From Candidatus Manganitrophus morganii (lineage in GTDB: Bacteria; Nitrospirota; Nitrospiria; SBBL01; Manganitrophaceae): a DNA stretch of 64,000 bases. Location of the stretch: assembly GCA_021651055.1 (NCBI GenBank), contig JAJHOH010000001.1, positions 310,001-374,000 on the forward strand, written 5' to 3'. Position 1 is the first letter of the stretch, and each line of letters opens with the position of its first letter. Below are positions 7,038 to 55,839 of the stretch, in pieces. The translations under genes and the position numbers were made by a program. Below the pieces are notes generated by a model. It saw nothing but the letters and a program-made list of their open reading frames with translations, did not search any database and had not been told where the DNA came from.

Positions 7038-9026
7038 CTAGACCGGCTCGACGTTTTGAGTCATCAATAGCGATTTCCTCTCTTCTTGAATGCGGAATGC
7101 CCCTTTCGGATCGCCTGGGCCGATTCTGTCGGCCTCAACGTGGAATTGACTGACCATTGCCATTAATTCGGCGCCCATCTGGGCCAGCCGCTTCGAGGCG
7201 GCGAGGATGGCGGCCGCCCCCTCAGCGGTCCCTTTGGCCGCGGAAACGACCCCATCGATGCTCTCGGTGACCTCCCCGGTCCCCCGGGCCGCCTCCATCA
7301 CCGAGCGGCTGATCTCGTTGGTCGTCGCCGTCTGCTCTTCGATCGCTCCCGCGATCGTGGTGGCGATCTCGTTGATCTGGGTGATGATCCCGGTGATCTC
7401 TCCGATCGCGGAGACCGCCTCTTTGGTGTCGGTCTGGATCACGCCGATCTTCTGCCCGATCTCCTCGGTCGCTCTCGCCGTCTTCTTCGCCAGATCTTTG
7501 ACCTCATTAGCCACCACCGCAAAACCTCTCCCTGCTTCTCCCGCCCGCGCCGCTTCGATCGCCGCGTTCAATGCCAATAAGTTCGTCTGCTCGGCAATCG
7601 ATGTGATCACTTTGATGACTTTGCCGATCTCCGCGCTGCTCTCCCCGAGCTTGCTGATCGTCTGGTTGGTCTCCCGCGCCACCTGCACCGCTTCTGAGGT
7701 GATCCGGGTCGCTTTCACCACGTTTTGGGAGATCTCTTTCAACGTCGCCGTCATTTCTTCCGCCGCGGTGGCAACCGCCTGCACGTTGCGGCTGGTCTGC
7801 TCGCTCGCCGAGGAGACCGTGCTCGCCAGCCGCTCCGTCTGCTCGGAGTTCGAGCCCATCTGCTGGCTCGAAGCCGCCAACTCCTCCGAAGAGAGCGCCA
7901 GGGAACGGGTCGATTCTTTGACCCGGAAGATGATCCCCGAGAATTTTTCCGAAAAGGTGTTAAACCAACGTCCAAGCTCGCCGATCTCATCGCGGCTTTT
8001 AATCTCGATCCGCTCTGTCAGGTCCCCTTGTTGTTCCGCCCGCTTTAACACCTCCATAATTTGATAAAGCGGCCGGCTGATCGATCGGGCCGTCCGAAGG
8101 CTCACCAGGACGACAATGACACTGACCCCGCCGAAGAGGAGCAAGGCGAAAAAGGTCATTTCTCGTCGGCTGGAGAGCAACAAATTGAGCGGTTGGAGAA
8201 GAACGACTCCCCCTTCCGTCTTCCCCTTTTTCCCCTTTAATGAAACGACCATATAGAGGTATTCCTCTTCACCCACTTTCCCTTCGATCGGCGCCGCGAC
8301 GGCCTCCTTCATGGCGACGCGGTCGAAATGAGATAACGTCGAAGCGATTTTCCTCCCCTCACCATCCACGAGGGCGGCCTCCAACCCGACCCGATGTTTG
8401 ATCCCCTCTACGAAGCCCTGATCCAGAAATACCCCTTCCCTCAAGAACCCGATCGGGCGTTCTAGAAACTGAAGCGCTTTATAAACCGAGACTTCGATCC
8501 CGTGTTCCATCACATTCCATTCGACCGCATGACCCTCCGCATGAAGCTGCTCCATGACTTCGCCCAGAAGCGAGTCCCCCGTTCGCTCCTCCATCTTCCC
8601 GACGAGCGAAGCGGAAGAGGAACCCGACTCAATCGAACCGGCCTGCACGGCCTTCGTTTTTTGAACGATCCAGAATGGAATCCCTTGTTCATTATAAATT
8701 CCCAGCAGGTCCGATTCGGAAAATCCGAGAAGCTGCGCCATCTGTGGTCTGATCACCTCCCGGCTGCCGGAGGCGAGCGCCTGGAGCAGCAACGACTGCG
8801 CGGCATGCCGTTCGGCTTGATTTACGAGTCGTTTCTCCTCTCTCCGAAGTTCGATCTCGACCCCTTTGCGGTTTGCCGCCAGCCGCTCTCCCATCTCCTG
8901 GCGGAGGTTCCTTGTGGAGAAAAAAAGGTTGGCCGCTGTCATGAGGATCATCGGCGCCATCGAGACGATCAAAAACCACGCGAGGAGTTTTTTCCGAAGA
9001 TCCCATGTTCGGAAGAAATCGAGCAT
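7038..9026 (-). CDS. Methyl-accepting chemotaxis protein (MCP 1)
   Basis: 662 residues from the ATG at 9026, preceded by GGAGAGAAAGAG; a longer start at 9056 has no ribosome site. A cytoplasmic start, a membrane helix, a large periplasmic sensor region of about 250 residues, and a second helix ([17 protein letters not shown]) are followed by HAMP and the long coiled-coil signalling domain. The hairpin tip is [19 protein letters not shown]. The signalling half is identical in DNA to MCP 3 over 7250-7889 and to MCP 2 over 7250-7709. Ligand unknown. Followed by a 191-bp gap before cheY copy 2. Confidence 0.94.
7250..7889. repeat. Long direct repeat, copy in MCP 1
   Basis: About 640 bp that I find identical to 11017-11656 in MCP 3. 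Its first 460 bp (7250-7709) are also identical to 9282-9741 in MCP 2. The offsets stay constant (3767 and 2032 bp), so there are no insertions or deletions. It encodes the receptor signalling tip and flanking methylation helices. Identity at silent positions points to recent duplication or gene conversion. Confidence 0.9.
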
Positions 9027-53587: not shown

Positions 53588-53951
53588 CGACTCTCCTGAT
53601 TCGAGAGGGGGCCGGTCACTTTGATCCATTTCAGCCGCTCACTGCTCCCTTCGTACTTACGAAATAAACTGCATGAGGACAACTTCCGAGTAAAAGTATA
53701 GCATACCGAAATGCCGTGAACTCTCCTGTCATCTTTGAAACTTACGGGAAAAGGTTCCAATCGCCTAAGGATCAACCCGATAAAGGCCTTGACAAGCCCG
53801 GAAACCCTTCGTTATAGTCAAAAGCCTATCGGAATATTTTTTCAGCGTCCTTACAGTTATTGAATGGATGCGTTCGCGTTTTTTATCACGTCCGGAAGTT
53901 CGCAAGCTCAAATCGGAAAAGTGTCGTTCATACAGAGTAGGAGGAGAGAAC
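53588..53951. other. Divergent intergenic region
   Basis: 364 bp between the HDOD gene (minus) and the DsrE cluster (plus). It holds a sigma-70 promoter for the plus strand (53789-53818). For the minus strand there is only a TGC-TATACT extended -10 at 53695-53703, without a clear -35. No gene was recognised. Confidence 0.55.
53789..53818 (+). promoter_or_regulatory. Sigma-70 promoter for the dsrE-like/tusA cluster
   Basis: TTGACA (53789-53794), 18-nt spacer, TATAGT (53813-53818). Predicted start near 53825, giving a leader of about 127 nt. A GGAGGAGAG ribosome site stands right before the first gene. Confidence 0.7.
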
Positions 53952-54278
53952 ATGGCTCGTTATCTCATCGTCGATAGCCGTGATTTGACGGAATATACGA
54001 ACGGCCGCTATATCCAGAAGGTGGCCTCCAAATTAAAAGAGGATGGAAATGAGGTGACCCTTTTCCTGATCGAAAACGGCGTCATCGCCGCTCGAAAAGG
54101 GGGGGATATCGGGAAGAATCTGACCGACCTCTCGAAGCGAGGCGCCAAAGTCATGGTCGACGATATCTCGTGCAAGGCCCGCGGCGTCGCACAGCTTGCC
54201 GATGGAGTGACCCAGTCGAACGTCGATCAGTTGGCGGACCTGATCACGGAGGGATCGGATAAGGTCATTTGGTATTAA
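53952..54278 (+). CDS. DsrE-family protein (1)
   Basis: 108 residues. YLIVDSRDLTEYT at the start, a DsrE/F-type fold pattern (VTLFLIENGVIAARKG, LSKRGAKVMVDDISCKARGV) with Cys74 at the position used for sulfur binding in this family, and C-terminal VIWY. Likely sulfur carrier. First gene of a five-gene run of small sulfur-relay proteins. Confidence 0.78.
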   Translation: MARYLIVDSRDLTEYTNGRYIQKVASKLKEDGNEVTLFLIENGVIAARKGGDIGKNLTDLSKRGAKVMVDDISCKARGVAQLADGVTQSNVDQLADLITEGSDKVIWY

Positions 54279-54309
54279 AACGAATTCTTCAAAACTTTAG
54301 GAGGAAACA

Positions 54310-54756
54310 ATGGCTACTGCAACCGCACCGACTGCGGCACCGGCAAAGGTAAAAAGGGTTGCGATCGTCCTGGCAACCGGCTCCTACCAACGCGAGGCGC
54401 CGACCACCGTTCTCCGGCTGGTCGAGAAACTTCTCCAGCGGGGGGTCGATGTGAACGTCTGGGCCTTCGAGGAAGCGGTCACCCTGACCAACAAAGATCA
54501 AATCGATCACAACGAGCCCGGTTCGCTGCAGAAAGTCTTGGGCGAGAAACACCCGAACATCGGCCGATTCATCGATCAATTGATCCGCGCCGGTCTTCAC
54601 GGCGCCAAGCTCGACTGGGTCTCCTGCATTCTCTGCGTGCAAGAGCGGGGGGTCGAGAAACACCAGATGGGTGGATCAATCGTCGGGACCCTCGGTGATC
54701 TCTGGAAATTCATCAAGGCGGCCGACCGGGTGATCTGCATTCCCACCTACCGATAA
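54310..54756 (+). CDS. DsrE-family protein (2), TusD/DsrE2-like
   Basis: 148 residues with an Ala/Pro-rich N-terminus, VAIVLATGSYQREAPTTVLR, and Cys106/Cys109 in WVSCILCVQERGV, where TusD/DsrE active-site Cys lies (CVxxxxRRG-like). Probable cytoplasmic sulfur-transfer protein. No membrane helix is seen. AGGAGG precedes the ATG. Confidence 0.78.
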   Translation: MATATAPTAAPAKVKRVAIVLATGSYQREAPTTVLRLVEKLLQRGVDVNVWAFEEAVTLTNKDQIDHNEPGSLQKVLGEKHPNIGRFIDQLIRAGLHGAKLDWVSCILCVQERGVEKHQMGGSIVGTLGDLWKFIKAADRVICIPTYR

Positions 54757-54767
54757 CGGAGATAAAA

Positions 54768-55154
54768 ATGGCAAACAAGGTGCTGGTTATTTTCGAAAAA
54801 CCGATCTACCTGAGTTTTGAACCGGTCGATCCGCATGTCTTCGCCACCGCCCTCGGCGTTTCCGACACCCCGGTGGAGGTCAACGTTCTTTTGCGCGATT
54901 CGGCCGTGACCTACGGCGTCAAGAATCAGCAGGTCAACGTCAAGATCGCCGGCCAGGACATCATGCTCCATGAAACCTCTCCTGAAAAGGTGATGACCTT
55001 CATGATTGAACATGGGGCCAAGGTCCGCGCGGTGGCGGAAGACATGAAAATCCGTGGCATCAATAAAGAAGACATGGTTCAGGGGGTCGAGATCATCAGC
55101 GAGGATGATTCGATCCGTTTATTGGAAGAGCACGACAGTGTCATGGTCTGGTAA
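54768..55154 (+). CDS. DsrE-family protein (3), cysteine-free
   Basis: 128 residues. VLVIFEKPIYLSFEPVD opening, DsrE/F-like alternation of strands and helices, and no cysteine at all. It would not carry sulfur itself. It may be a structural partner, as non-catalytic subunits are in TusBCD/DsrEFH complexes. 11 bp after the previous gene. Confidence 0.68.
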   Translation: MANKVLVIFEKPIYLSFEPVDPHVFATALGVSDTPVEVNVLLRDSAVTYGVKNQQVNVKIAGQDIMLHETSPEKVMTFMIEHGAKVRAVAEDMKIRGINKEDMVQGVEIISEDDSIRLLEEHDSVMVW

Positions 55155-55180
55155 CCGACCGGACTTCACGGAGTAATTTT

Positions 55181-55429
55181 CTGAGTCTGAACGTCACAAA
55201 AGTTTTAAATGTTACCGAGTATTTCAACCCGATCGACTGCCGAAGTCTCGGCGTCATCCGGACGACCCTGGCGCCGATGGAAAAAGGAGAGATCCTGGAA
55301 GTCCACGGAAACCGGTTTCAACAACGGGAAATCACCGCCTGGACGAATAAATTCAAACATCCGATCGTGAAGATCGAGGATGTCGACGGGCTTGTGAAGA
55401 TATTCATCGAGAAGGGCGGGCTGAAGTGA
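55181..55429 (+). CDS. TusA-like sulfur carrier protein, apparent CTG start
   Basis: 82 residues. The frame has no ATG, GTG or TTG before the conserved part. CTG at 55181 has GGAG with a 7-nt spacer (GGAGTAATTTT). Cys20 in NPIDCRSLGVI matches the TusA cysteine, though the usual CPxP proline is replaced (CRSL). The end GLVKIFIEKGG matches the TusA C-terminus. Stop overlaps the next gene's GTG (GTGA). A second CTG at 55187 is also possible. Carries persulfide between sulfur-transfer partners; here probably the DsrE proteins around it. Confidence 0.75.
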   Translation: MSLNVTKVLNVTEYFNPIDCRSLGVIRTTLAPMEKGEILEVHGNRFQQREITAWTNKFKHPIVKIEDVDGLVKIFIEKGGLK

Positions 55430-55839
55430 AGAAGATGGCGATCATCGTCACCCGGGGGACGCACAATAACTTTGTGACCGTTTTTACAATGGTGATGGCC
55501 GCCGCCGTCTGCGAGATGTCTGTTCGTATCTTCTTCCGGGACGAGGCGGTCTATAAACTCTCCCGTAAAAAAATCTCCGAGCTGAACCTTTCGGAGGTCT
55601 ACCGCGGGGTCGAAAATGAGTTAAAGAAAAACTATGAAGCAACCGGAATGGTCGACCTTCAGAAAGTGATTCAGGATGTCAAATCACAGGGCGATGTGAA
55701 GCTTTATAGCTGCACCTCTTCCATGGCGCTCGTCGGCCTGACGCAAGAAGAGCTGATTCCGGAAATCGACGAGCCGCGCGGCTTGACCTCCTTCCTCTTG
55801 GAAGAGATGGATGATGCCGATATGATCCTTAGCTTCTAG
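55426..55839 (+). CDS. DsrE-family protein (4)
   Basis: 137 residues, GTG start overlapping the TusA-like stop. Opening AIIVTRGTHNNFVTVFTMVMAAAVCE, then VRIFFRDEAVYKL and KLYSCTSSMALVGLTQEEL with Cys96 at the DsrE-type position; Cys29 is extra. Likely sulfur relay. Ends opposite the next minus-strand gene with a 4-bp overlap of the stop regions. Confidence 0.75.
   Translation: MKKMAIIVTRGTHNNFVTVFTMVMAAAVCEMSVRIFFRDEAVYKLSRKKISELNLSEVYRGVENELKKNYEATGMVDLQKVIQDVKSQGDVKLYSCTSSMALVGLTQEELIPEIDEPRGLTSFLLEEMDDADMILSF

Follow-up and report, generated by a model that had tools for sequence, protein, structure and literature searches.

The window analysed here, the whole 64,000-nucleotide stretch of the Candidatus Manganitrophus morganii genome (G000), a manganese oxidiser, carries five forward-strand genes, named A to E below, which had been described in the initial annotation as a cluster of four DsrE-family proteins and one TusA-like protein. 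This description is borne out, since Pfam profiles, orthologs and fold place A, B, C and E in the DsrE superfamily and D in the TusA family, and the set is intact. Gene A (53952..54278, 108 aa), gene B (54310..54756, 148 aa) and gene E (55426..55839, 137 aa, GTG start) score 37.6, 36.3 and 44.4 bits, respectively, with the Pfam DsrE profile, exceeding its cut-off of 22.7 bits. Gene C (54768..55154, 128 aa), encoding a cysteine-free subunit, lies slightly under it at 20.9 bits; its ortholog in genome G096 reaches 23.7 bits, and both alignment and an AlphaFold model (pLDDT 74) assign it to the DsrE/DsrH fold, with structural matches to YchN, DsrH, DsrF and TusB/C/D at E-values down to 3e-7. Gene D (55181..55429, ~82 aa) is TusA-like, scoring 25.2 bits in the window against a Pfam TusA cut-off of 28.6 bits, while its Blastocatellia orthologs obtain 34.3-35.4 bits. 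An ATG, GTG or TTG start is absent from gene D in the window, and judging from the sequence it likely starts with the CTG at 55181, after GGAG. The arrangement GGAG-N7-CTG is kept in most Manganitrophus, with ATG instead in G005. Gene callers restricted to ATG, GTG and TTG would miss or shorten D. The GTG start of gene E overlaps the stop of gene D. Purifying selection is strong on all five genes, with pN/pS of 0.02-0.11 against G005 and GW715 (0.05-0.11 for gene D), implying that all five are maintained proteins. The cluster is flanked by a divergent HDOD-type gene, which follows a flagellar cluster, and by an unrelated reverse-strand gene; for the window it was correctly stated that rhodanese, Hdr and Dsr genes are absent next to it.

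Profile comparison relates A most closely to TusD (98%) and TusC (91%), B to TusD (96%), C to TusB (93%) and E to TusD (96%). For E, which resembles a soluble DsrE2, the closest solved relative is the archaeal DsrE/DsrF-like protein SSO1126 (PDB 2qs7), which is given no function in its PDB title and is matched at an E-value of 3.6e-12; the score of E with NCBIfam SulfCarrDsrE2 is 27.7 bits against a cut-off of 210. B is the most conserved of the five proteins, with ortholog identities of 70-96%, and is 99% identical to the B of Manganitrophus strain GAC4. PDB sequence searches with B returned only DARPins plus a weak YchN match, and a model of B folded from 10 sequences was poor (pLDDT 46). 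No relative of B was found in IMG/VR, and a plasmid search with E gave no match.

The distribution of cysteines is informative with regard to the roles of these subunits. B contains two invariant cysteines, C106 and C109, forming a CxxC motif, and C106 aligns with the catalytic cysteine of TusD. The wider motif WxxCxLCxxERG is present in all aligned B proteins, those of Proteobacteria included, its first cysteine aligning with that of the TusD-like paralogs. By alignment, C96 of E is also invariant. C74 of A is off the TusD catalytic spacing, is replaced by Ala in Blastocatellia and is absent from those relatives read that possess only A, B and C; nor is a cysteine in C general across that family. 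Thus, the earlier proposal of a family-position cysteine in three of the DsrE-like proteins holds for B and E and fails for A, the residue of B being C106 and not Cys109. D contains an invariant cysteine, C20, within D-C-x-S-L-G, and does not present the TusA-type CPxP active-site motif. Since the motif of B is kept in all B proteins aligned and the cysteines of A and C are not general, B is likely the catalytic subunit, carrying the chemistry, while the other two are likely structural, as in TusBCD and DsrEFH. Those type I systems similarly have a run of three genes of the DsrE superfamily together with a protein of the TusA family, with the catalytic cysteine in the TusD/DsrE-like subunit, and C of the cluster fits their DsrH/TusB fold. 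The cluster differs from them in its order, A-B-C-D-E, in the extra invariant cysteine of B at +3 and in the addition of a fifth protein, E.

A sigma-70 promoter, TTGACA-18-TATAGT, with 11/12 matches, is located at 53789..53818 on the forward strand. Six Manganitrophus genomes retain its -35 and -10 blocks despite diverged surroundings, even though a blind promoter scan performed no better than chance (2 found vs 1.6 expected). The leader that follows, ~126 nt in length, is not conserved and gave no match in an Rfam search. The -35 region at 53788-53796, CTTGACAAG, is a perfect 9-base palindrome that is kept in the six Manganitrophus genomes. Directly after the -10 block, at 53825..53836 on the forward strand, lies a candidate operator-like 12-mer, CCTATCGGAATA, common to the promoters of the rrf2-tauE-aprAB-sat operon. 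An exact 11-mer of it occurs 5 times in G000, once before rrf2, and the core CTATCGGAATA stands immediately before rrf2 in six genomes, while in three close Manganitrophus it immediately follows the -10 of the five-gene promoter. This promoter lacks the right half of the rrf2 site, and the more distant Manganitrophus lack the core, so that the shared core is only a hint. A full Rrf2-operator model built from rrf2 promoters ranked the five-gene promoter 7th in the window and scored divergent Manganitrophus low. Because the full-site model does not single out this promoter, co-regulation of the five genes with rrf2-tauE-aprAB-sat is only a candidate on the basis of sequence. In Leptospirillaceae (L018, L019, L021, L022, L023, L072), a GGTTAnTAAnTTA-like motif is situated upstream of A, directly after the promoter, and is possibly an operator of their own.

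A search for the same gene order, A-B-C-D-E, recovered it in all the Manganitrophus genomes covered (in GW715 a contig end truncates it, and in the fragmentary nzgw269 a frameshift-like break splits B), in the Troglogloeales genome G007, in G019, a member of another family of Nitrospiria, and in Leptospirillaceae, where B was found in 5/21 genomes. In three Blastocatellia A-B-C-D is contiguous and E is located elsewhere in the genome. The set is hence shared by Manganitrophus with iron oxidisers and with some Acidobacteriota. Within GTDB samples of Acidobacteriota, B of the five-gene type was present in 3/396 genomes and the A-B-C type in 5, and for other phyla the occurrences given are those among the matches listed. 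The flanks mostly differ between lineages that carry the five-gene set. Conservation of the order while the flanks change indicates that the set is self-contained, as was originally suggested. Furthermore, orthologs of E (E-value <= 1e-36) were detected in 12/13 genomes with five-type B, including the three Blastocatellia in which the two are unlinked, vs 1/25 other genomes; the only five-type B genome without one, G140, has a cluster contig that ends inside C. This co-occurrence of E with B, linked or not, is strong evidence that the five genes act together, neighbours or not.

A diverged A-B-C triple without D and E extends the family further, occurring in other Troglogloeales, other Acidobacteriota and Proteobacteria, and is plasmid-borne in Paraburkholderia (L180, L182), where it adjoins a heavy-metal P-type ATPase, and in Methylophaga (L181). 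The Methylophaga plasmid has the run cysJ-cysI-A-B-C-cytochrome-oxidase-subunit-I, in which cysI ends at 7619 and A starts at 7620. A second association with sulfite reductase, involving the complete set, is observed in G019, where a same-strand run with gaps of at most ~110 bp reads Rrf2-TauE-AprA-AprB-Sir(HEPN)-TusA-TusA-A-B-C-D-E-Sat, an apparent sulfate-assimilation operon. The Rrf2 regulator is CymR-like by NCBIfam, under its cut-off, and TauE is a permease; the sulfite reductase (L070 3553-6240) bears two C-terminal TusA domains with an intervening HEPN domain. This context derives from one metagenome contig, with the cluster well inside it and an AprA 75% identical to that of Manganitrophus. 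The genome of the window possesses the same operon, rrf2-tauE-aprA-aprB-sat, without the insert, and its sulfite reductase (L097 9056-11524) has one C-terminal TusA domain. Other Nitrospiria likewise have long frames that include a TusA domain, and among the papers searched none combined sulfite reductase with a TusA domain. The assimilatory core of Manganitrophaceae consists of sat, aprAB and aSir (PMC9040806).

The presence of related gene sets beside sulfite reductase suggests that the chain probably serves sulfur assimilation. The pathway had been sought in thiolation or sulfur oxidation, and that assignment is not upheld by the partners found, which are assimilatory: Sir, AprAB and Sat in G019 and CysJI in Methylophaga. 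Support for assimilation as the pathway is moderate and rests on these two gene contexts, which come from distant phyla and from one genome each, the Methylophaga one with A-B-C only. Assimilation genes are not adjacent to the cluster in Manganitrophus, Leptospirillaceae or Blastocatellia; many genomes with a Sir-TusA protein are without the cluster, and no long TusA fusion was found in the Leptospirillaceae that carry it. Taken as a whole, the interpretation that we tentatively prefer, at slightly less than an even chance, is that of a persulfide relay resembling TusABCD/DsrEFH and linked to the assimilatory reduction of sulfite.

Among the alternatives, handling or detoxification of persulfide on the oxidative side, in which the relay would gather sulfane sulfur arising from stress or from the oxidation of sulfide and pass it to a persulfide dioxygenase or rhodanese, is unlikely, though it draws on several observations. 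Two acidobacterial A-B-C triples adjoin a persulfide-dioxygenase-like MBL-fold protein with two rhodanese domains (L101 6370-7749, convergent with A-B-C; L104 5243-6643, co-directional), the hosts are aerobic, and E resembles DsrE2-type proteins, a type that elsewhere is associated with the oxidation of sulfur (PMC4175335). Against this, dioxygenase, rhodanese, sqr, sox and hdr genes are absent beside all five-gene clusters read. The sHdr-linked set tusA-dsrE2-dsrE3A (PMC4175335) likewise combines TusA with DsrE paralogs, and E of the cluster is DsrE2-like without a membrane anchor, but B has Cys-X2-Cys in place of the Cys-X7-Cys of DsrE3A, and the hdr, lbpA and dihydrolipoamide dehydrogenase genes are missing. 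In G000 no sHdr HdrB pair was found; the proteins with CCG domains are, by reading, SdhB-linked, GlcF-like or DUF3501-linked, and the HdrB-like one adjoins SdhB. Membership of the sHdr system was rejected owing to the missing hdr partner genes.

Somewhat less probable still is a biosynthetic thiolation relay resembling TusABCD-E-MnmA that would serve the synthesis of 2-thiouridine or of a sulfur cofactor. The components are the same as TusA plus TusBCD, and in the Blastocatellia genome G314 D is the only TusA-family match and A, B and E are the only DsrE-family matches above threshold. The proteins of the cluster are nevertheless far from the NCBIfam Tus equivalog cut-offs, the best scores being 29.5 vs 49.2 for TusB, 23.4 vs 94 for TusC and 18.1 vs 89 for TusD; there is no TusE/DsrC gene within the cluster, and mnmA, moa, thi and lip genes are not adjacent. 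Moreover, G000 has two further TusDCB-like triples (L067 5973-6903; L068 6764-7725), one downstream of iscR-iscS-hscBA-fdx and the other beside a cytochrome-c-peroxidase-like gene, whose scanned TusC/D-like proteins are also far under these cut-offs, as well as a TusA-DsrE2 pair and a TusA gene beside a second cysteine desulfurase. In view of these other carriers, ordinary tRNA thiolation in G000 is not dependent on the five-gene set. A divergent member of the YTD/DsrEFH type II systems, which belong to sulfate-reducing and sulfur-disproportionating organisms, is highly improbable: although these share the building blocks (tusA with three DsrE-like genes) and are present in Nitrospirota (PMC12998232, PMC13293266), the cluster has CxxC in B, an E without counterpart there, aerobic metal-oxidising hosts and no yedE/yeeE gene flanking it in the window, L015-L023, L070-L077, L098 or L099, and membership was rejected on account of these missing partner genes. 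The initial view that the set is neither a standard dsrEFH/tusBCD nor an sHdr cluster is thus upheld and extends to YTD, given the different arrangement and the separate TusDCB-like triples and TusA-DsrE2 pair of G000.

What is known of DsrE and TusA relays comes mainly from tRNA thiolation and from energy metabolism based on sulfur. Their chemistry is established for TusA, TusBCD, DsrEFH and DsrE3A (PMC3397948, PMC13293266, PMC4175335), and by homology relay chemistry is well supported for the present cluster, the five proteins most likely forming a chain that hands sulfur from one to the next. In the preferred relay coupled to assimilatory sulfite reduction, A, B and C would form a sulfurtransferase complex like TusBCD/DsrEFH, in which B would carry sulfur on C106, the nearby C109 may resolve the persulfide, and A and C would be structural. 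D, through C20, would be the TusA-like carrier and E, through C96, the soluble DsrE2-like one, with sulfane sulfur presumably passing from cysteine to cysteine among the five. The relay would be fed by, or would feed, the sulfite-reductase-TusA system: sulfur leaving a siroheme sulfite reductase with one or more C-terminal TusA domains would be captured as persulfide on protein and delivered to biosynthesis, instead of being set free as sulfide. The most specific version, in which aSir loads persulfide onto its fused TusA and frees no sulfide, while D, ABC and E carry it to biosynthesis, is speculative and on balance rather doubtful. Such protein-bound, channelled sulfur assimilation would be comparable to the role of DsrC and DsrEFH in dissimilatory metabolism.

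If the relay is tied to assimilatory sulfite reductase, aerobic metal oxidisers such as Manganitrophus would keep newly reduced sulfur protein-bound, and the A-B-C operons, annotated only as "DsrE family protein", would gain their first candidate function.
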